A DNA stretch of 31,670 bases from a virus, in IMG/VR virus record IMGVR_UViG_3300032245_000153, positions 1 through 31,670 of that record; one strand, written 5' to 3'. Below are positions 9,197 through 25,046 of this stretch, piece after piece. Under the pieces are notes generated by a model. It had not been told where the DNA came from. It was given only the letters and a program-made list of their open reading frames with translations, and did no database searches. The first letter of the stretch is position 1. Every line of letters begins with the position of its first letter. Made by a program: the position numbers and the translations under genes.

Positions 9197-9380
9197 CGGC
9201 GTAAATTATCAGATTGATTGGCCTACGTTTTTACCAGGCTCGTCTATCTTTATACCTGCTATTGATACTGAGTCAGCTATCAAAGCTATACAAAAAGAAA
9301 GTGAACGACTAGAGTTTCAGTTCGTTCACAAAGTTGTTATAGAAGACCATGTTAAAGGTATACGAGTCTGGAGACTATAA
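9141..9380 (+). CDS. Small conserved phage protein of unknown function (79 aa)
   Basis: The frame runs to 9380 and overlaps the primase end. The body reads YHWIYHEVFTNGVNYQIDW, then FLPGSSIFIPAIDTESA, and ends HVKGIRVWRL, a pattern known from small phage proteins next to replication genes; no function is known to me. The start is uncertain: TTG at 9141 keeps the aromatic N-terminus, GTG at 9186 would give 64 residues, and neither has a good ribosome site, so it may depend on coupling to the primase. It is the last forward gene and its final six bases overlap the end of the convergent late operon. Confidence 0.6.
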   Translation: MKDSRLTTYHWIYHEVFTNGVNYQIDWPTFLPGSSIFIPAIDTESAIKAIQKESERLEFQFVHKVVIEDHVKGIRVWRL

Positions 9381-12300
9381 ACCACCACGATAACGTAGTT
9401 GTTGTATATATCTATCCATCGTACCTCTAACTTTAAGTTGATGGCCTAGTAAATCCTGACGGCGTTTTTCAATTCGTTCTAGCTGTTCTTTCTTCGAAGC
9501 AGGGGTATATCTTTCAGCGTCTCTGCTGGCAATAATTTTATTCTCATGTGAACGTAACAATGATAGTTGGTCACTTATGCGTCTCATTTCTCCTGCCATA
9601 ATAACAAGTTCTCTATTGTTATCTTTGTCTAGATATTCTTGATACTTATTATAATCAAGACCTTTAAATTTATTTGCAGATTGAACAGCTTTATCTACAA
9701 TATCTGATAACTCATAGAAGTCAGTTATATTACGTGAACCATGTTCTCTTGCTAAGAAAGAACCACTGCTAGGAAGTTTTAAGAATACTTCTCTAATAGA
9801 TTGCTCAGGTAATATATCGCCTCTAGAACGCGCTAACATAGATGTAGTCATTAAACCTAATAATCCTGCAGTCGTACCAAAGTATCGATTCATAAAATGA
9901 TCTACTTGTATTGGTGCTAATCCACTAAAATCACCAATAGTCTTTGCTAATTCAGAAGTGTATTTAGGGCTGAATTGTAATTCAGGTTCTAGATTAGCTT
10001 GACCTTGACCTATTAAAGGTCTACCTGTTACTAAGTCAATATTATATGCACTTTCAACTAAAGGAGTAACTAGCGTAGGTATAGCTGATGGTGTAGCTAA
10101 TGCTCGTTTAAGTCCTCTAGCAAATGCTGTAGCAAACTTTTCAGAATCTTCTGATTCAGCAATCATAGTATTATAGATATGCTCAGGAACTGTTTTAAAA
10201 AATAAAGTAAATATGTCATTACGTAATGGAATCTTAAATCCATCAGCGCCATACATTAACAAGAATCTATCTCTTTCTGAAGGATCAAGTTCTTTATATT
10301 TGTCATCATCAGCACCCATAGCTGCATACGCAAAGCTAAGTAGCATCACTTGACCTGCAGTTAACCAGAATCGTTTAAACGCATCTGATCTAGCATCGGG
10401 TGTAATACCATCGTTCATAATTGTGCTAAACGCTACATGTAATGCTTGTAAGTTAGCATTAACAAATGGTGCATTTTGACGCATAATATTAATAAGTTGG
10501 TTAGTACCTGTTCTACGGAAGTTAATAATTTCTTCAGCTACATGAACAGCACGAGCCTTGTCACCTGTTTCAGCTACTGTTTGAGCATATACCGCTTGAC
10601 GTATAACGTTATCAGAAGCCATAGATAACATCTCTAATGGATGCATGATAGCTTTAAGTAACTTATCTAATGTTTTATATTTTTTAGCTTCTTGCGTAGC
10701 TTCAGCATCAATACGTTCATATTCAGAACTAAAGTCATGCTTGCCTACTGTACCTGTTTTTTTAAGTTCTTCACGAGCAGTACTTTGATGCAACGGAGTT
10801 AACACAATCTCCTTCATCACTTGTAGAGGAATAGCTAAAGGATACTTAACACCTGAAATAAACATAGAGTTAAATGCGTCCATAGGTATTTGAGCTACAG
10901 AGAATATAGGTTGTAATACAATGTTTAGTCTTAAGAAGTTTGCATAAGGTCTAAAAAAGCCTTTAAGTCCTGTAAGCATAACAGGTTCTAATCCTGTAAA
11001 GCCACCTACCATAGACTCACCATCATTACCTTGGAACTCATACTTAACAAGCTTACCATCTTGCCAAACGTTCACAGTATTACCTGTAGTGCTGCGTTCT
11101 TTATCTTTAAGTACTTTAATGTCGTTAGCTACGTAGTTACTAAATAAACCAATCTTAGCTTGAGCTGCGGTATTGTTAATTGATTTTCTAACAATATATC
11201 TAGTCCAACGTTCCATGTTATCAAACACATTGTTTACAGATTGATAACTACCTTTAAGTCGTTTATCTGTAGCTGCATCTAATAAACCTCTAGCGTATTC
11301 TTTAGGACCTTTACCTGCTTCAATTTGGGCATCTCTATAGAATGGAACATAGTCCATTACATTTAATAGATCTTCTACTTGTTCTTCAGTATATAAACCG
11401 CTATCTTTAGCAAGATTTAAAACTTTACGTCTAACACCATTCCATGTATCAGCTATATTTTCTAGCTCAGGGAATTGAGTAAAGAACTTTTCACCTTCTT
11501 TAATTTGAGCTGGTGTTAAATGCACAAGTTTATAGTTAGCTTTTAAGCGTTTCTTAGCTAAGTCTGTTTTGTTTTGAGTTAAAAGTTTTAATACGTCTTT
11601 TTCTAATTCTTTATTAGCATCCATTAAACCTTGTGAACGACGAGCAATAAAAGCTTTACTTGCATATACAAACATCTTATTAACAGGAAGACCATTTTTT
11701 TTAGCTAGTGCTTCAATTTTATTTCGAATAGCAATCATGCTATCTTTAGCATCAGTTACTTCAAACTTAAATAAGTTATTATTATATTTAATATTGCCGT
11801 GTTTTAAAAAGAGATCAGCTATCTGATCAGATTTAACGGCTTGTGATACTTGTAACATGTAATAAGCTTTAGCTAGTTTTTCAGGTATTACCCCTGCTTT
11901 ACGCATGCCTTCAAGTATCTTTTTGTTTATAGATGTATCGAACGAGAATAGATTAGATCTAATCATGTTCATAATTTTAGGTAGGGTTTGTACGGGTTGT
12001 GATTTAAATTCTTTCCACACTGTGACAGGTTCTACTTTTACAGCTGCTTTATTACCTGCAGCATCTGCTTGTTTATCAAGGTCTTTTTCAGACATTCTTT
12101 GATAGAGTGGTTCAACCGCAGGGAACCCTGCTAATTCTTTAGGACGATAGCCTGTAAATAAATCAGGAGCAACACCAATAATATCGCTTAATAAAGTATC
12201 TGATATGTCACCAAGTTTTAATAAGTCTTTAACTGCTGATAGGAAGTCAGTCCACAACGAAGTTAACGTAGTCTCACTAGGAGCCACACTTGGTTGATCA

Positions 12301-14681
12301 GCTAAGAATCTTTGGAAGTCAGCGGTATTAAATGCTTCAGCAATAAATTCTTCCATGTTATCAAATGCATGGCCAAAGTCTTTGCCTTGCTCCCGAGCAG
12401 CATCTTGTGCTGATGTAAAAATAGCTACCATCTTACGACCTACATCATCAATACCTCTCATTTTGCCATTCTTAGTCTTTACATGTTTTTTAATTTCCCA
12501 TGCAGTGGCAGCATGTGTTCCTTCGTGGAAAATAGCATTAGTACCAGCATCTGGGCTAATCGTTGTTTTATTATTAGTAGGACTGTAGGAACCAAACTTA
12601 TTCTTTCCTATTGCACTAATATGGTATCTACCCTTAGTTACATTTTGTATACTAGAGAGCACATTATGTAATACTTTTTCTACAGGATTAAGTTTTTCAA
12701 AGTGTTGTTGTTTTAATATATTTAAAGCTTGACCCATAGTCTTTGCAGGCTTAGTCGTATTAACAATTGCTTTACCTTCAGGAGTACCTTCAAAGTTTGT
12801 AGGTAATTCTTCCTCTTCAGGAGCTGTTTTTGTTAAGTCTACTTTTTTAGCTGCACGAGATTGTTTTAATTCTTGAATAGTATCGTGTGCAGTTGCAATT
12901 TCTTCTTCAGATGCTGCACCGGTTTGTAATGATTCAATAAGCGGATTAGTAGGATCTAATGTTTGTAAAAGTTTACCCATGCGATTCATGGCTTTTACTT
13001 CTGGAGTTAATTCTTCTTCGCTTTTTATTACTTCTTGAGTAGCTGGCGCTTCAGGTACTTTTGTTTTAATAGTTTCAGGCGTAGTTGTTTCTAATGGAGC
13101 GTTGCTTGCCTTTTCTCCTGTTTGAGTGAGTCTAGCAAGATTTCCACTGAAATCAACTGCAGTTCCGAAACGTCCTTGAGTTCCTCCGGGAGTTCCATCG
13201 TTAAGTCCTCCAAGTATTTCATTGCTAGTTCCAGCTGCTCTACTGACAGATCCTGCATCGGGTAGTCCTTTCAAATAAGCATCGACTGCTGTTTCATTTA
13301 TTTTACCTGTATGTACTTCTAAAGTCTTGTTCATTATATCAAGACCTTCAGGTGTATTAATATCTTGTCCGACTAGTGCTTTATATGCATTAGAACGAGG
13401 GTTTAGTCCCCACGAAGTTAAAGTAGTTTCGTCTAATACACCAGGTTCTGTCGGTTCTACTTTGTTAACTTCTTGTTCTACTTCAGCAGCTGTAGTATCT
13501 TCCTCTGCTTTTTGTTTAGCTGCTTGTATATCTTTAGCTTTAGAATTTAATGTATTAAATGTGGAGTTAATAATTGTATCACGACTAGCACGTTTTTCTT
13601 CTGCAGCAGCAGGTTCAATTACATCATCTTTTTTCTCATCGACAGCTTTATCTATCTGCCTATTAGTATTCATTTGTCTAACACCAGTGTAACCACCAGC
13701 CATAGCAAAGCCTGCTAATGCACCAGTAGCAGCAGCTTCAGCTACACCTTCATCCCAAGGTTTTTCAGCAGCTAAGTTTTGTGCAATTTGTTCTTGAATA
13801 GATTGTGGAAGTTCTTCTAAACCAGCTTCACTGATAGCACTCTTGAAGGCTGAAGTAAGAACACTTTTCTTTTCCGCTTGTCCTGCGCCACCTGCCATAA
13901 GAGTATCGATATCATCAAAGCCTAATTTTTGAGCTACTCTACCCCCAAGTAAACCAAAACCACCAGTTAGTACACCACTACCCGTAGCAATTACTGCTTG
14001 TTTAGGAGTAAGTAAACCATCTTCTTGTTGTTGACGTGTTTGTTCTGCAATAGAACCTGCGGTAATAGCACCTTCACCTGCAGCACCAGCTACAGTTCCA
14101 GCAGCTTTTTTACCTACCATAGTAGCTATTTTTTTACCACCAACACCTAATACTTTTCTAGCTAGACCTGCACCACCAACCATTGAAGGTAGAGATTCAG
14201 TTAATATATTAAGAAACGCTGCTGGATTTTGAGCAAGAGCACCGACAGTGTTTTTAAAACCTTTAGCTTCGGCAACTGCTTGTTCTTGTTTTTGTTCTTC
14301 TGGAGTTTTTAATGCTTGAAGTTTTGTTTGTAAGTCTTTTGAAGTACCACCAAATAAACCTTTTTCAATAGCATTAGTAGCTTTACCTGCTAAACCTAAA
14401 GTAGGAATATCTGCTAAACCTACAATAGCTTCACCTGCACTCACAGCACCTTTAGCTAGACCTAAAGCAGGATCAGCTAAATATCTACGAGCAGCACTAC
14501 TAGGCGCTTGGGTAATATCTTTTTGAGGTTGAGTAACATCTTGAACAGATGATTCAGGTGTAGCTTCTTCAGCAACACCTGCTTGTGATCTTATGTAATC
14601 TGCTAATGTTTTTGCAGATTCAGTATCTCCCGCAGCATGGGCTTTTTCCAAAGCCTTATATACGGCATTTAAATCGGCCAT
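9375..14681 (-). CDS. Large internal virion (ejection) protein with HExxH metallopeptidase motif
   Basis: 1768 residues, the size class of phage ejection/polyvalent proteins. The N-terminus (AVYKALEKAHAAGDTESAK) is a short helical motif common at the start of such proteins. Residues about 145-300 are glycine/alanine-rich and hydrophobic (GGAGLARKVLGVGGKK; GSGVLTGGFGLLGG), suited to membrane insertion. Residues about 350-640 are low-complexity and glutamate/threonine-rich. H719-E-G-T-H723 in IFHEGTHAATAWE, with E782 in NMEEFIAEAF as likely third zinc ligand, gives a gluzincin-type peptidase site like those described in phage polyvalent proteins. The C-terminal half is helical, with a hydrophobic block near 1440-1460. 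It is last in the late operon; its job is probably genome delivery. Confidence 0.8.
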   Translation of the reverse strand: MADLNAVYKALEKAHAAGDTESAKTLADYIRSQAGVAEEATPESSVQDVTQPQKDITQAPSSAARRYLADPALGLAKGAVSAGEAIVGLADIPTLGLAGKATNAIEKGLFGGTSKDLQTKLQALKTPEEQKQEQAVAEAKGFKNTVGALAQNPAAFLNILTESLPSMVGGAGLARKVLGVGGKKIATMVGKKAAGTVAGAAGEGAITAGSIAEQTRQQQEDGLLTPKQAVIATGSGVLTGGFGLLGGRVAQKLGFDDIDTLMAGGAGQAEKKSVLTSAFKSAISEAGLEELPQSIQEQIAQNLAAEKPWDEGVAEAAATGALAGFAMAGGYTGVRQMNTNRQIDKAVDEKKDDVIEPAAAEEKRASRDTIINSTFNTLNSKAKDIQAAKQKAEEDTTAAEVEQEVNKVEPTEPGVLDETTLTSWGLNPRSNAYKALVGQDINTPEGLDIMNKTLEVHTGKINETAVDAYLKGLPDAGSVSRAAGTSNEILGGLNDGTPGGTQGRFGTAVDFSGNLARLTQTGEKASNAPLETTTPETIKTKVPEAPATQEVIKSEEELTPEVKAMNRMGKLLQTLDPTNPLIESLQTGAASEEEIATAHDTIQELKQSRAAKKVDLTKTAPEEEELPTNFEGTPEGKAIVNTTKPAKTMGQALNILKQQHFEKLNPVEKVLHNVLSSIQNVTKGRYHISAIGKNKFGSYSPTNNKTTISPDAGTNAIFHEGTHAATAWEIKKHVKTKNGKMRGIDDVGRKMVAIFTSAQDAAREQGKDFGHAFDNMEEFIAEAFNTADFQRFLADQPSVAPSETTLTSLWTDFLSAVKDLLKLGDISDTLLSDIIGVAPDLFTGYRPKELAGFPAVEPLYQRMSEKDLDKQADAAGNKAAVKVEPVTVWKEFKSQPVQTLPKIMNMIRSNLFSFDTSINKKILEGMRKAGVIPEKLAKAYYMLQVSQAVKSDQIADLFLKHGNIKYNNNLFKFEVTDAKDSMIAIRNKIEALAKKNGLPVNKMFVYASKAFIARRSQGLMDANKELEKDVLKLLTQNKTDLAKKRLKANYKLVHLTPAQIKEGEKFFTQFPELENIADTWNGVRRKVLNLAKDSGLYTEEQVEDLLNVMDYVPFYRDAQIEAGKGPKEYARGLLDAATDKRLKGSYQSVNNVFDNMERWTRYIVRKSINNTAAQAKIGLFSNYVANDIKVLKDKERSTTGNTVNVWQDGKLVKYEFQGNDGESMVGGFTGLEPVMLTGLKGFFRPYANFLRLNIVLQPIFSVAQIPMDAFNSMFISGVKYPLAIPLQVMKEIVLTPLHQSTAREELKKTGTVGKHDFSSEYERIDAEATQEAKKYKTLDKLLKAIMHPLEMLSMASDNVIRQAVYAQTVAETGDKARAVHVAEEIINFRRTGTNQLINIMRQNAPFVNANLQALHVAFSTIMNDGITPDARSDAFKRFWLTAGQVMLLSFAYAAMGADDDKYKELDPSERDRFLLMYGADGFKIPLRNDIFTLFFKTVPEHIYNTMIAESEDSEKFATAFARGLKRALATPSAIPTLVTPLVESAYNIDLVTGRPLIGQGQANLEPELQFSPKYTSELAKTIGDFSGLAPIQVDHFMNRYFGTTAGLLGLMTTSMLARSRGDILPEQSIREVFLKLPSSGSFLAREHGSRNITDFYELSDIVDKAVQSANKFKGLDYNKYQEYLDKDNNRELVIMAGEMRRISDQLSLLRSHENKIIASRDAERYTPASKKEQLERIEKRRQDLLGHQLKVRGTMDRYIQQLRYRGGL

Positions 14682-19334: not shown

Positions 19335-21512
19335 TTAGTTCCTCATTCCATCTGGACGTGCATCAACTCTTGGCATACCAAGTTGCCACTGAGTTCCCAC
19401 ATCGTTTGACTCAATTCTAAAGCTCATCTGACGACCACGACATCTTATAAACACTTGATTTGTATACTGATCTACAGTTGCTGTTGACGTTACAATGTTA
19501 CGAGCGGTAGTTACACCTGAAGCGTTTGTTGTAGAAGATGCTGCACCTGGGAAGTTTTGAACACCCACAGTAATTGTAGTTTGAATAGTATTAGGAGCGC
19601 CTGTCACAGGATTAGTTTGTTCTGATTGAGTAAAGTTAATGTCAGGAATAATACGGCGTACTAACATATATTTATCACCATCATCAATATCCACATTTGC
19701 AGACTGAATATAAGCTGAAATAGGTAGAGGTGCAGCACCATTAGGCTGACCATTATCTACACCGTTTTCTTGATCATATATCCAACCCCCTGCAGCTGCA
19801 ATAGGATTAGTGAAGTCACCTGAATCTAACCACGAAGTTCGCTCTAGTTGACCATAGTACCAAATACTTTCTGCATAGTTATATATCACATAACGATCAA
19901 TTTCATTTGCAGTAGCTGAGCAATAGAACCAAACAATTTCATTAAACTGATTATTAGTACCCGCAAAGAATAGTTGTGCTTGGTTATAATTAATATCAGA
20001 GAATATGTATTGACGTAGTGTACAAGGTAATGCATCTACACGACCAGAGTATGTGAAGAACTTATCACGTCCCATCCAGTAAGCTACGTTATTAATACCT
20101 ACTACAGCATTAGGTCCAGCAATAGATATATTATGTGATAGTTCTTGTAAACCGAAGACTTCTGTAGTACCTAAGAACTGCATAGATGTTACAGCAGTAT
20201 CTGTAAAGATTAACATTTCTTGTCTTGAATTTAAAGCAGCTATAACTCTTGAACCTGATTGTAAACGTAAGAACCCAGCTGTATTAGTAGCCGTAGGTTG
20301 CCATACTTCTGGCTCAGGACCTATGGTCGCATCAACGTTTGCCCAACGAATAAGTAGTGGATCATAATCACCGGTATAATTATTGTATACATAAGTACCT
20401 ACAGTTGTGGCGTTATTAGCAGGCGCTGATGTCATTGTGTAACTAAAATGGGTAGCATCAATATAAGTAATTTGGAAAGTACCATTAAACTGCGTAGGTA
20501 TACATCCTGATACAGTAATACTATCGCCTGATTGTAGACCATAAGCTGTAGATGTTGTAACAGTCGCTGTTAAGTTACCCGTGCCACCACGAGTCATAGT
20601 TGACATAGATACACCTGCTACAGTGGATGGTAAGTAATTAGTACAACCTAGCGCTACATAATGACCACTTGATGCAAACAATGAAAAATCTACTTGGCGA
20701 GGCACAGCAATAGCCCCTGGTATAGACTGTAATGTTACAGCACGTGTTGTAAAACCAGGATCATATGCCCAATAATAAAGATCAGCGCCATTAATATTAA
20801 ATACTAAATCTTGATTAAAGTTATCAAAGAACTCTAAACGCGCTGGGAAGAAAATAGGTACAGTAGAACCTGAACCCCAAGTACCACGAGACCATCCACC
20901 AGCACCCCAACCATAACCTGCTGTTACAATAGGGTAACCAATATTAATTTCAAATTTAGCCGTGATGGCTGTATTACCTGCAGATGTGGCAGTAGAAGAT
21001 GCAGTTGTAGCCACCGCAATATAAGGTGTACCACTAATAATTGTAATTTGGAATGAGCCGTTAAAGTCAGCTGCTGGTACACCACCTACGGCAACAGTGA
21101 CTCCACTAAATGTAACCCACTCACCATCTAGAATACCTGCTGTGATATTTAAGATTTCAACTAATTTAGAACCTGATGTTGTTTTAAAACAATTATCACT
21201 TGAAGGCGTTGTTGTAGATGTATAAGTAACACGAAGAGGTGTTATATCGTAGAGCGAAGTAGCTGAGTTAACATATATTTTTTCATTAGTGCCAACAGAA
21301 ACTAATTTACTACCATCTGAAGTTGCCCATGTAAATAGACTACGAGCTGAACCTTCATATGCAGTAAATGTTTTAACAGTCCAGCCACCAATTTTTTCAG
21401 GGAACCCTGAACGGAAGCGAACTTTGTCCATTGAGTACCAGCCACCCTCAGACGCATAATCAGTCTGATCTCGGTTAACTCCTGGTTTAAAGACTAGTTT
21501 ACTTAACGGCAT
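19335..21512 (-). CDS. Tail tube / DNA-stabilisation-like virion protein with two inserted Ig-like modules
   Basis: 725 residues. The N-terminal motif PLSKLVFKPGVNRDQT followed by WYSMDKVRFRSGFPEKIGGW is typical of podoviral proteins similar to P22 gp10 packaged-DNA stabilisation proteins and T7 tail-tube B, built as beta-propellers. Repeated strands with aromatic ends follow (VSVGTNEKIYV; LVFNINGADLYYWAY; PLLIRWANV). Two related beta modules are embedded: residues about 116-187 (FSGVTVAV...ADFNGSFQITII) and 316-376 (VSGCIPTQFNGTFQITYI). It would seal the portal channel or form the tail tube. The start lies against the lysozyme stop, sharing one base. Beta-propeller assignment is by family likeness, not by visible catalytic residues. 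Confidence 0.75.
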   Translation of the reverse strand: MPLSKLVFKPGVNRDQTDYASEGGWYSMDKVRFRSGFPEKIGGWTVKTFTAYEGSARSLFTWATSDGSKLVSVGTNEKIYVNSATSLYDITPLRVTYTSTTTPSSDNCFKTTSGSKLVEILNITAGILDGEWVTFSGVTVAVGGVPAADFNGSFQITIISGTPYIAVATTASSTATSAGNTAITAKFEINIGYPIVTAGYGWGAGGWSRGTWGSGSTVPIFFPARLEFFDNFNQDLVFNINGADLYYWAYDPGFTTRAVTLQSIPGAIAVPRQVDFSLFASSGHYVALGCTNYLPSTVAGVSMSTMTRGGTGNLTATVTTSTAYGLQSGDSITVSGCIPTQFNGTFQITYIDATHFSYTMTSAPANNATTVGTYVYNNYTGDYDPLLIRWANVDATIGPEPEVWQPTATNTAGFLRLQSGSRVIAALNSRQEMLIFTDTAVTSMQFLGTTEVFGLQELSHNISIAGPNAVVGINNVAYWMGRDKFFTYSGRVDALPCTLRQYIFSDINYNQAQLFFAGTNNQFNEIVWFYCSATANEIDRYVIYNYAESIWYYGQLERTSWLDSGDFTNPIAAAGGWIYDQENGVDNGQPNGAAPLPISAYIQSANVDIDDGDKYMLVRRIIPDINFTQSEQTNPVTGAPNTIQTTITVGVQNFPGAASSTTNASGVTTARNIVTSTATVDQYTNQVFIRCRGRQMSFRIESNDVGTQWQLGMPRVDARPDGMRN

Positions 21513-21961
21513 TATTTACCTTCAAAGAGTGCTTTCTCATCTAATCTACGAGTTTGTAGACCTTTGAGTATTTTACCACCTGCACGACAATATTTCACTA
21601 ACGATTCCATAGCCGCCGTTTTATCGCCGCGAAGAAGCGCTTGACGGAGTGTTGATCGCTGAAATGTACCCAAGCCAAGGTTAAAGGCAAAAGATACAAG
21701 GCAATCAAATTCACATTGTCTAAGAGGCACGTTAGGTAACATCTTAGATATTCCCAGCTCGAAGCGACGTAAGTCGGATTTAAGAAGTCCATCTATTTCC
21801 TCCGTCGAAAAAGTTCTGTTCCAAGAATCAGGCAACAATTTGCCATCCCCGATAAGATGACCAACACCAACAGTCCACAAGTGTGCAGGGCAACGATAGG
21901 GACGACTACGCACACCCTCGTGATGTTTGATAAGAGCGATGCCAGCTTTTGATACATTCAC
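21512..21961 (-). CDS. GH24-type lysozyme (endolysin)
   Basis: 149 residues with a T4/P22-type lysozyme layout: catalytic E15 in HHEG, position +9 is C24 instead of the usual aspartate, and T30 in WTVGVGH. The E-x8-D/C-x5-T triad with cysteine is known among phage lysozymes. Further matching parts are the QCEFDCLVSFAFNLG helix (about 102-116) and the C-terminal KILKGLQTRRLDEKALF. There is no signal peptide or signal-anchor, so release to the periplasm must depend on the holin gene directly upstream. It cleaves the beta-1,4 glycan bond of peptidoglycan at the end of infection. Confidence 0.92.
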   Translation of the reverse strand: MNVSKAGIALIKHHEGVRSRPYRCPAHLWTVGVGHLIGDGKLLPDSWNRTFSTEEIDGLLKSDLRRFELGISKMLPNVPLRQCEFDCLVSFAFNLGLGTFQRSTLRQALLRGDKTAAMESLVKYCRAGGKILKGLQTRRLDEKALFEGK

Positions 21962-22447
21962 TTATTTCTTTTCCCAAGTTCTAGCACCAAAGTAGAATCC
22001 AATAATAGAAGCTACAATTGCCATCTCATCAGTAGAGAATATAATATCCATAGCTTCACCACTAAACCCTACAGTCTTAACAGCCCAGATAAAGCCGCCA
22101 ATATCTACAAATAGTAGTAAGCCTACAAAAGTGAAAGCAACAATAGGACGGACAGAGGCATTAAGAGTTCTAACCCATGGTGCAGCATCATGAACCAGTT
22201 TAGCATCGTGTTCATATAAAGCTTGACGTTCTTGTGCGAATGTTTCTGCATATGTACCCTCCAATTCAATAGCAGCTATTTTTTCTTGGGCAATAAAACC
22301 CTTTTCAGCCATAGCCATTTGTTGTTGATTTTGAAGCTGTGCCATTTCACGTTCATGCGCTTGGTCTCCCTTTTGTTGGAAAAAACCTAGTATAGACGGG
22401 AGCCCCGCAGTTGCGAAGCCGAGAATCGAGGAGAGGATGGATAGCAT
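21962..22447 (-). CDS. Holin, gene-transfer-agent 3TM type
   Basis: 161 residues. A hydrophobic N-terminal segment (1-23), a glutamine/glutamate-rich helix (25-85), then WVRTLNASVRP (91-101) leading into a membrane span (102-122), and a last hydrophobic stretch MAIVASIIGFYFGARTWEK (142-160). The WVR..ASVRP and FYFGxRT motifs are those of the holins with three membrane segments first described in gene transfer agents. It lies between the spanin-like gene and the lysozyme, with gaps of one base or less, which supports the lysis role: forming membrane lesions that let the lysozyme out. Confidence 0.85.
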   Translation of the reverse strand: MLSILSSILGFATAGLPSILGFFQQKGDQAHEREMAQLQNQQQMAMAEKGFIAQEKIAAIELEGTYAETFAQERQALYEHDAKLVHDAAPWVRTLNASVRPIVAFTFVGLLLFVDIGGFIWAVKTVGFSGEAMDIIFSTDEMAIVASIIGFYFGARTWEKK

Positions 22448-22448
22448 A

Positions 22449-22844
22449 TTAGTTGTTCAATGGATTAACCATTGCCTTTCGTAGTTGTTTCATTTCGTCT
22501 TTAACATTAGCAACTGTATCTACAACTTTATCTGCAGTACTTTTAGCAACACTATTAGCTTCAATAGCTTTACCATAAGCTTCATTTGCTTTTTCGAGAG
22601 ATCGATTGTTAGACATCATGACATCTACTAATTGTCTTTCTACTGATTTAGATCTATCTTCTAAAACTATAATACGAGTCTCAACTGAGCTCATCTTTTT
22701 TACTTCTTCAATCGTCCCCGTCAAATCGTTGAAGAGGGTTATCCCGTAGTATACTGCGCCACCTAATGGCACTAGTATTGAACAGGCGATCCCCAGTATC
22801 ATTTGCGCTGATAAATTCAAGGAGTATGTTTTGTTGTCGCTCAT
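22449..22844 (-). CDS. Spanin-like inner-membrane coiled-coil protein (131 aa)
   Basis: One membrane span (about residues 13-37: AQMILGIACSILVPLGGAVYY in the middle, written here only to mark it) follows a short polar N-terminus, and the rest (45-125) is a long charged coiled coil with few helix breakers. This N-in, C-out layout next to holin and lysozyme fits an i-spanin (Rz-like), which links inner to outer membrane in the last step of lysis. AGGA lies eight bases before the ATG. Its first 45 codons, including the span, overlap the end of the upstream secreted-protein gene in another frame. Alternative: an unrelated lysis regulator. Confidence 0.6.
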   Translation of the reverse strand: MSDNKTYSLNLSAQMILGIACSILVPLGGAVYYGITLFNDLTGTIEEVKKMSSVETRIIVLEDRSKSVERQLVDVMMSNNRSLEKANEAYGKAIEANSVAKSTADKVVDTVANVKDEMKQLRKAMVNPLNN

Positions 22845-23766
22845 AATCTTGTTCCTGTAGTAAGTTAATATATTCTTTCATTTGTTCTTGCTGCAGGTTG
22901 TAACCTGAGTTTAATAGCTGCATAGACATAACTATGCCAAATCCTGGTACTAATGCTTTACCTTTAGGCACGTCCATGCCTTTTACATTATCTTTTTTAT
23001 CTGTACCCGATGTCGTCGTAGTACTTGCGGGGCTTGGTGCAGATGTCGTTCCACTTGCCTCGCTTTTTACTGTGGCTACTGAAGTAGCTGGTGTTTCCGG
23101 TGTTGACGGGGTAGTTGCAATAGCAGTTAGGTCTTGTACCGTTACAGATTCCACAGAGGTCATTGGTGCAGTTGTGATTGAGTTCATTTGTTGGCTTATC
23201 ACGCTGTTTGGATTCGTTGGGCTTATTGGACTGATTGGTGATGTCGGATTGTTTAAGTTCGTCGCCGTCATCTTGCAAGTATTGTATATTTCCAACCAAG
23301 TGGTCCAAGTTGGAGAACCATACGGATCCGAGCAAATCGAATTTCTTTGTTCTTGTAATGATCCCTCGAAGCCAGCTGAACATGTTAGTGTTCTCGTTTC
23401 AGTGCTTTGTATACACGTTGCAGGATCTGGCGTGCAATTGTCAGAAGTTGTTGTCCAAGGTCCCCAACTTTGTGAAGAACATGTATAAGTCCTACTTTGA
23501 TTAACTGCGCCTGAATGATGAGGTTGGCAACTAAGCGATTGATACTCTGTTTGATTTGAGCAAGTGGGTTGGAGATAGTAGCCACACTCTGGTATATTAG
23601 GGTAATACTGACACGCAACTTGTTGGCAAGCAGCAAGAGTTGTTCCTTGATTAACGTACAAACTGTCAAACACTGGGCCATAAGACGTCCAAGAACTTGC
23701 GTAACAAGCTGCATATGCATTATTCCTTAGTAGGAGGAAGAGCAGGAATGTTATAATCCTCGCCAT
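22708..23766 (-). CDS. Secreted cysteine-rich protein with two TSP1-like repeats (352 aa)
   Basis: Residues 1-19 are a Sec signal peptide (ARIITFLLFLLL, cleavage near NAYA-AC). A cysteine at 21 makes a lipoprotein conceivable, but Y-A-A-C is a poor lipobox. The exported part has 12 cysteines up to residue 164. Two repeats share the pattern C-x15-C-x14/18-C with WxxW before the last cysteine: C80/C96/W101/W104/C111 and C129/C145/W154/W157/C164, each with G and QxR between the first two cysteines, like thrombospondin type-1 modules. A serine/threonine/proline linker (172-258) follows, then a glutamine-rich helix (286-322). It overlaps the upstream gene by 47 and the spanin-like gene by 137 bases. 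Function unknown. Confidence 0.7.
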   Translation of the reverse strand: MARIITFLLFLLLRNNAYAACYASSWTSYGPVFDSLYVNQGTTLAACQQVACQYYPNIPECGYYLQPTCSNQTEYQSLSCQPHHSGAVNQSRTYTCSSQSWGPWTTTSDNCTPDPATCIQSTETRTLTCSAGFEGSLQEQRNSICSDPYGSPTWTTWLEIYNTCKMTATNLNNPTSPISPISPTNPNSVISQQMNSITTAPMTSVESVTVQDLTAIATTPSTPETPATSVATVKSEASGTTSAPSPASTTTTSGTDKKDNVKGMDVPKGKALVPGFGIVMSMQLLNSGYNLQQEQMKEYINLLQEQDYERQQNILLEFISANDTGDRLFNTSAIRWRSILRDNPLQRFDGDD

Positions 23767-24205
23767 ATAATTTTTTAAATCTTTCTGGATACTTAGTGAA
23801 CCAAGCTTTCTTAGCAGCTTGACCTACAGCACCACCCATAGGACATGGTGAACCTGACATCTCCATAGCGTCCCACACAGTTGGGTCTTGGCATAGTACG
23901 GATACTGCAGCTACTTTAAGTCCTAAATCGTTTAATGTTTTAGCTAACTTAATTTTGACACAGTTCTGATCTAGTACCACAGTACCACCTGATAATGACA
24001 CTACACCAAAGTTACCTGCTCCACTTATAGGAACCGCACAAACATCTTGTGAAAACGCAGACATACTAGGCGCCATAGCACTTTGTACTGGCATGCCTTT
24101 ATTTTGTATGATTGTGGTTTCTGCGTGAGCTGGAAATATAAGTAACCAAGCAATAGCCGAGACTATCACTGGGAACAACATTGAGGTTATTTTTTCCATG
24201 TTCAT
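23720..24205 (-). CDS. Secreted phage protein with four cysteines (161 aa)
   Basis: A Sec signal peptide is clear: basic start (MNMEK), hydrophobic core (LFPVIVSAIAWLLIF) and AHA-ET cleavage near residue 28. The mature part has NKGMPVQSAMAPSMSAF, C56 in DVCAVPISG, C82, C105 in VLCQDP and C121 in GSPCPMGG, an even number suited to two disulphides, and helix KLAKTLNDLGLKVAAVSVL. The mature motif pattern is familiar from uncharacterised phage proteins near lysis genes. No Shine-Dalgarno is visible; the start overlaps the end region of the fibre gene by coupling distance only. It should act in the periplasm or outside the cell; its role is unknown. Confidence 0.7.
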   Translation of the reverse strand: MNMEKITSMLFPVIVSAIAWLLIFPAHAETTIIQNKGMPVQSAMAPSMSAFSQDVCAVPISGAGNFGVVSLSGGTVVLDQNCVKIKLAKTLNDLGLKVAAVSVLCQDPTVWDAMEMSGSPCPMGGAVGQAAKKAWFTKYPERFKKLYGEDYNIPALPPTKE

Positions 24206-24206
24206 T

Positions 24207-25046
24207 TTAGTATTCTACGACTACAACACCGCCAGCACCAGCTCCACCTGGATTATTACTACCACCTCCAGAGCCCCCGCCGCCATAATTACCCCCTGCA
24301 CCTCCTGTTAGATCAAAATTAGTCCCAACAGCACCACCACCTAAATAAGATGATCCGCCTGTACCTGCTGATTGTGCACCCACGCCCCAGACACCGCCAC
24401 CGCCTTTAATTTGTAAAGTTCCAGCACTGCCAGCACCACCAGAACCACCAGTACCCAATGGTACGGCGGTACCTCCACTTCCACCAGTAGCAGAAGCTAA
24501 AGCACCAAAGGATGAAGTACCTCCTGTGCCACCAGTACCAGGAGAAACACCTGCCGTCCCAGCAGGCCCAACAGTCACTGCATAAGGTGTTGAAGCAGTT
24601 ACAGCACCTACATATATAGCTGCACCGCCGCCACCGCCGCCAGCCGCTTTAGCCCCAGATGAACCACCGCCACCACCACCTCCAACCACAGTCACTTTAA
24701 TTTGTGTAGTTGTAGCAGGCGTAGTAAATGTACCAGGGGATGTATAGACAGTCATGTTAGAGAACCCACCAGCAGCAGCTGCGGCAGAGGTCCATGTTGT
24801 ACCGTTAGATTTTAAGATGTTACCGGATGCACCAGCAGCAACCAATGAAACAGCGCTTGTACCAGCACCTACTAGCACAGAGCCAGAAGTTAGAGTAGTT
24901 GCACCGGTACCCCCTTGAGCTACGCCCAAAGTTGTTGTTAGCGTTACAGCGCCTGTAACACCAAGGGTACCTCCGATGGTTTCGTTACCACTATTAGTAA
25001 CTGCGGGCGTCGTTATCCCTGTGGTGCCGTCTAATGTAATTGCCAT
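24207..25046 (-). CDS. Glycine-rich tail fibre / adhesin, copy 1 (279 aa)
   Basis: N-terminus MAITLDGTTGITTPAVTNSG is a classic phage fibre start. It is followed by repeats with GGTGATTLTSGSVLVGAGTS and SNGTTWTS (about 45-90). The module SPGTFTTPATTTQIKVTVV (about 102-120) begins a glycine-rich domain (GGGGGGGSSG, NYGGGGSGGGSNN) that ends in VVVVEY. Such domains resemble the glycine-rich adhesin tips that bind host receptors in some phages. The last of three tandem relatives; the other two are at 25378 and 26264. Structural family is clear, receptor unknown. Confidence 0.8.
   Translation of the reverse strand: MAITLDGTTGITTPAVTNSGNETIGGTLGVTGAVTLTTTLGVAQGGTGATTLTSGSVLVGAGTSAVSLVAAGASGNILKSNGTTWTSAAAAAGGFSNMTVYTSPGTFTTPATTTQIKVTVVGGGGGGGSSGAKAAGGGGGGAAIYVGAVTASTPYAVTVGPAGTAGVSPGTGGTGGTSSFGALASATGGSGGTAVPLGTGGSGGAGSAGTLQIKGGGGVWGVGAQSAGTGGSSYLGGGAVGTNFDLTGGAGGNYGGGGSGGGSNNPGGAGAGGVVVVEY

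Follow-up and report, generated by a model that had tools for sequence, protein, structure and literature searches.

We identified a three-gene cassette, A-B-C, beside the lysis genes of a virus represented by a 31,670-nucleotide stretch of DNA, hereafter the window (IMG/VR record IMGVR_UViG_3300032245_000153, positions 1 to 31,670). That A, B and C constitute one conserved cassette is nearly certain, whatever their function, and as a unit the cassette appears undescribed: our literature search, with most subscription journals outside its reach, found no paper describing it. Its likely roles fall within known kinds, either control of lysis or superinfection exclusion. We tentatively favour an optional, envelope-spanning complex that is linked to lysis and may act as a sensor controlling it. 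The relevant features of the window are the following.

24207..25046, minus strand: tail-fibre-like glycine-rich protein, immediately upstream of A with a 1-nt gap (PHROG tail families, PF21722)
23720..24205, minus strand: gene A, a 161-aa exported disulfide protein (ORF, relatives, AlphaFold2 (AF2) model, four invariant cysteines)
22708..23766, minus strand: gene B, a 352-aa exported protein with a leader, tip, beta modules, stalk and C-terminal helices (ORF, homologues, AF2 model)
23563..23709, minus strand: B tip domain, type I, about residues 20-68, replaced by types II or III in relatives
23275..23562, minus strand: B repeats, residues 69-164, two cysteine-rich three-stranded beta modules (AF2, pLDDT 91-97)
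22942..23250, minus strand: B Ser/Thr/Pro stalk, residues 173-275, predicted to be disordered (AF2, pLDDT mostly below 50)
22744..22941, minus strand: B C-terminal helices, residues 276-341, predicted with low confidence (AF2, pLDDT about 55)
22449..22844, minus strand: gene C, a 131-aa protein with an N-terminal transmembrane (TM) segment, a coiled coil and a C-terminal NPL motif (homologues, constrained B/C overlap)
21962..22447, minus strand: holin-like 161-aa protein, 1 nt past C (PHROG holin, E 0.004; Pfam GTA_holin_3TM, E 0.02, below the curated cut-off)
21512..21961, minus strand: endolysin of the GH24 phage lysozyme type, directly after the holin-like gene (PF00959, E 3e-32)

The initial annotation of this region described A and B as two exported, cysteine-containing proteins that feed into the lysis genes. 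Both ORFs exist at the described positions with a 47-base overlap, and the link to lysis is supported. C, the 131-aa gene annotated there as spanin-like, is the third gene of the same conserved unit and shares 137 bases with B, two features that the annotation missed. Synonymous divergence drops to 0.10 in this B/C overlap, compared with 0.34-0.38 in A or C alone, which indicates that both frames are coding there. Purifying selection acts on A, on the tip, repeats and stalk of B, and on C (dN/dS 0.10-0.37; 0.14-0.37 for the A and B genes). A further gene on the minus strand of the window (9375-14681) encodes 1768 aa that include an LPD38 (large polyvalent protein) domain; its product may be delivered along with the virion.

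The cassette is widespread. Searches with tblastn matched A in 11 annotated phage records, namely six Pelagibacter phages including the T4-like Mosig, two roseophages, one uncultured Mediterranean phage and two Manatee Spring phages, and at least 594 further A-encoding stretches were found in IMG/VR. We examined 125 A-bearing loci (isolates, IMG/VR contigs and the window) representing 21 A lineages, whose carriers comprise podoviruses, a T4-like myovirus and roseophages. B and then C follow downstream of A in almost every one of these loci that reaches far enough. In the annotated phages, the neighbouring genes keep the order of A, a larger exported protein and a small TM-plus-coiled-coil protein with an NPL-type ending, from which only the first C-like protein of HTVC115P deviates. 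Existing annotations list the cassette proteins as unknown or misannotate them (TonB, OmpA family). The myovirus Mosig and the podovirus HTVC023P share 64.7% identity in A, suggesting that the gene has moved between phage families. The cassette also appears to be optional, since HTVC027P, a phage of the HTVC023P type (PMC9599517), retains a holin-like gene and has no match to A. Homologues of A were further observed on metagenome-assembled or single-cell contigs assigned to marine and freshwater bacteria (loci L129-L142); these may be prophages or misbinned phage contigs.

Protein A begins with a hydrophobic leader spanning about residues 1-28 (24205-24122) that ends in AHA, followed by ET. 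Its four mature cysteines, C56, C82, C105 and C121, are invariant in 52 homologues, in agreement with the signal peptide and four mature cysteines originally annotated. The AF2 model of A (mean pLDDT 69) is disordered past the leader and then shows a predicted beta-hairpin between C56 and C82 (residues 57-78; 24037-23972), followed by helices. No convincing match to this model, which is of moderate quality, was found among solved structures (Foldseek best E 0.69; VIA best Z 2.4), and the only PHROGs entry for A is phrog_20531, to which no function is assigned. In one marine lineage of 17 loci (L092, L096, L101, L106, L108, L111, L112, L115-L118, L120-L122, L125, L126 and L128), A measures 328-470 aa and B can be as long as 876 aa; B of this lineage bears an exported “MATNGCLHF” domain with no Pfam match.

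According to a simple hydrophobicity rule, a signal-peptide-like leader is kept in 120 of 123 A homologues and in 100 of 106 B homologues, which upholds the export predicted for both proteins. A lipobox was detected in only 4/123 and 3/106 of them, respectively. With a consistent lipobox in neither A nor B, the suggestion that one of them serves as an outer-membrane partner of a spanin was weakened.

The leader of B ends in AYA, followed by AC. All the elements attributed to B from its sequence were seen: the signal peptide, 12 cysteines, two modules (C80-x15-C96-x14-C111 and C129-x15-C145-x18-C164), two WxxW motifs, the stalk and the C-terminal helices. In the AF2 model, two three-stranded beta modules are predicted with confidence (pLDDT 91-97, about residues 70-165), and the repeats look like real folded units. 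Counting by eye from translations, we found 2-4 copies of the module in homologues (L021, L080, L089). The identification of these modules as thrombospondin-1 (TSP1)-like is not supported. TSP1 repeats, too, are tandem beta modules of small size that are rich in disulfides and conserve Trp and Arg residues, but the modules of B match no TSP1 profile or solved TSP1 structure in the searches run. No TSP1 family was matched in Pfam at E<=1 among 38 B homologues, no TSP1 chain was retrieved from the PDB by sequence with the B profile, and none appeared in the Foldseek and VIA lists for B, where the best Z was 4.3, no solved structure matched convincingly and small domains are poorly covered. Relative to the cysteines, Trp and Arg also come in a different order in B than in the TSP1 pattern.

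Matches of B and C in Pfam and PHROGs were confined to weak, low-complexity or coiled-coil ones, and the position of B is filled in different ways across the carriers. In marine phages, it is occupied by other exported proteins; in one group, a single member has a weak match to CBM_4_9 (E 0.009, below the Pfam cut-off), and another group carries a domain without a Pfam match. In roseophages, the protein at this position is helix-rich by inspection. The C-termini of freshwater and marine B proteins showed no similarity in profile comparison (probability 0.2%), and B is therefore defined by a shared position and layout; the freshwater and marine proteins may be unrelated. In many homologues, the +1 and +2 frames inside B remain free of stops for longer than expected from codon shuffling, and in the window such alternative-frame ORFs lie at 23385-23720 and 22997-23383 (minus strand), open across freshwater homologues beyond this expectation. 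We do not claim hidden overlapping genes here, because the synonymous rate is 0.39 in the tip and 0.24-0.25 in the repeats, compared with 0.10 in the B/C overlap.

The CBM_4_9 resemblance raises the idea that an infected cell displays B as an adhesin that captures neighbouring cells, as in the “sibling capture” proposed for phage curli genes of pelagimyophages (PMC7029224). The curli (type VIII secretion) modules of pelagiphages are, similarly to A-B-C, exported multi-gene cassettes found across Pelagibacter phage families (PMC9599517, PMC7029224), but the present cassette differs in gene set and position. None of A, B and C matched the curli families CsgG, CsgF or CsgA in Pfam or PHROGs or showed homology to curli proteins; the carbohydrate-binding match falls below the Pfam threshold, and no route to the surface was found. 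We consider adhesion highly improbable.

The most variable part of B is its tip. In freshwater B proteins, the first approximately 45 mature residues fall into three types. Mean tip identity is 65% within a type and 27% between types, whereas A is 84% and 83% identical in the same sets; loci L012 and L057, for example, share 99% identity in A and 89% in the repeats, but only 24% in the tip. Mapped on a tree of A and C, tip types change at least 16 times, compared with a possible minimum of 2 and a mean of 19.1 for shuffled labels; branches with good support require a minimum of 6-7 switches involving types I and II. Tips of one type show purifying selection (dN/dS 0.18 and 0.36). Tip variation is an exchange of discrete types between close relatives and not gradual drift, with recombination presumably the route.

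Such exchange is expected of a domain that faces a variable ligand, and it fits a close rival to the sensor, namely superinfection exclusion or receptor masking. Here the B tip would sit at the cell envelope and block a receptor or the entry of a competing phage, or keep progeny off debris, with C as the anchor and A as an accessory. The leaders of A and B, the optional nature of the cassette, its passage between phage families as seen in the 64.7% identity above and the tail-fibre gene just upstream in the window are all consistent with this role. T5 Llp is a phage outer-membrane lipoprotein for superinfection exclusion. Like such lipoproteins, the cassette encodes phage-made exported envelope proteins and could face a receptor, but it lacks a lipobox, comprises three genes and adjoins a holin-like gene (T5 exclusion is treated in PMC9586334). 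Exclusion does not predict the frequent holin-like neighbour, the genes lie in the late operon, and no lipobox or outer-membrane anchor was found; we regard this role as possible but somewhat doubtful.

In protein C, an N-terminal membrane segment is present in 114/114 homologues (residues 13-31 in the window, 22808-22752) and an NPL-type motif at the C-terminus in 113/114 (22466-22458 in the window). Phage HTVC115P encodes two C-like TM-plus-coiled-coil proteins (L003, 5902-6264 and 6607-7035), the second of which ends in NPLSNMK. The only matches of C in our searches were to coiled coils. An extra gene of 112-121 aa with a metallopeptidase-like HExIH motif was observed between C and the holin-like gene in a clade of relatives, comprising L001 (7751-8089) and, at the same position, L070, L072, L073, L074, L077, L079, L084 and L090.

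In the window, the tail-fibre-like gene, A, B, C, the holin-like gene and the endolysin gene follow one another in this order with 0-1 nt gaps or overlaps. Across the examined loci, a small protein with at least two TM segments is encoded by the first gene after C in 67 of 101 cases and by the first gene before A in 16 of 105, and rarely at the farther slots (D3, 0/71; U3, 1/75; U2, 2/91). Mosig and uvMED S28-C10 carry the multi-TM gene directly upstream of A, and no endolysin was detected in their flanks that were examined. About a third of the A lineages had no multi-TM gene that we could recognise in the vicinity. The initial annotation had raised the question of whether the exported pair always occurs beside GTA-type holins; a multi-TM gene does usually adjoin the cassette, but these neighbours belong to several families, of which one is a curated GTA_holin_3TM and phrog_3427 holin and others are PHROGs without known function. 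The position of the cassette could alternatively be due to a late-operon hotspot for accessory genes.

The adjacency to the tail-fibre gene, together with a tip that varies like a receptor-binding domain, would also suit minor particle proteins, whose apparent leaders would then be hydrophobic N-termini. The leaders retain signal-peptidase-like sites and the cysteines are conserved, however, and the carriers of the cassette differ in particle type and may have it at non-structural positions, such as near a DNA primase gene in Mosig. A virion role is accordingly very unlikely in our estimation.

The location within a lysis cassette and the layout of C, an N-terminal TM segment with a coiled coil as in i-spanins, would suit a spanin substitute. 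C, with a putative N-in/C-out topology, would be the spanin-like inner-membrane component and A and/or B its outer counterpart, and together they would breach the outer membrane once the endolysin has acted. Two-component Rz/Rz1 spanins share with the cassette its position, the architecture of C and the overlapping genes, and the spanins of phage lambda join by their C-termini (PMC6139136), the C-terminus being the most conserved feature of C. An Rz-family protein (PF03245) was found in 0/42 cassette-bearing records, with a positive control genome, a result that excludes only Rz, as spanins are diverse. No lipobox ORF was found on the minus strand around the lysis genes (window 18-26.5 kb). 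Absence of spanins is itself weak evidence, given that none were found in 91 of 677 phages surveyed (PMC6139136). With neither an Rz-type spanin nor a lipoprotein partner found, the cassette is not a canonical spanin, and it departs from Rz/Rz1 in its third gene and its swapped recognition domain. The latter is unexpected for a membrane fusogen, and optionality would go unexplained. HTVC027P has no A match, and no Rz pair was recognised by eye in the stretch read. Four loci with the same holin and no A (L143-L146) show no obvious Rz pair by eye either, which makes them neutral on a replacement of spanins by the cassette. Overall, we find a spanin substitute unlikely.

A sensor controlling lysis would account for the exported proteins, the coiled coil anchored in the membrane and its fixed tail, the frequent holin-like neighbour, optionality and the swapped tip, and we infer this role only tentatively. 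In such a scheme, A, B and C would be made along with the late lysis genes as an optional, horizontally moving envelope complex. C would be anchored in the inner membrane, its coiled coil lying in the periplasm, B would dock on C through its C-terminal helices and its stalk would reach across the periplasm. A would be a disulfide-locked partner, perhaps the receptor for the NPL tail of C. The tip would recognise a variable ligand, either a component of a competing phage or a host surface molecule, and its state would be passed to the neighbouring holin and so set when lysis fires. Such a scheme would work like lysis inhibition in phage T4, with unrelated parts. The T4 protein RI is a periplasmic antiholin with a cleaved signal peptide that is believed to sense superinfection (PMC8385771). 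RI and holin T thus resemble the cassette in combining an exported periplasmic phage protein with a link to a holin, which here consists of genomic proximity only. No sequence or architectural similarity to RI was found; the cassette has three genes where RI is one, together with a tip that is exchanged, a long stalk and a membrane coiled coil on a protein of its own, and its sensing is putative. Whether it represents an undescribed class of envelope machine, in which a sensor of three proteins spans the periplasm, bears interchangeable exported tips and cues the holin, in unrelated aquatic phages, is a more doubtful proposition.

The cassette is common (IMG/VR holds at least 594 stretches that encode A), and its carriers include phages that infect Pelagibacter and bacteria of the Roseobacter group. 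The swapped tip offers a direct handle for finding its ligand. If the cassette controls lysis, abundant aquatic phages would sense their surroundings as in T4 lysis inhibition, but with unrelated parts. Should it instead exclude other phages, the cassette would represent a widespread competition system acting at the level of the envelope.
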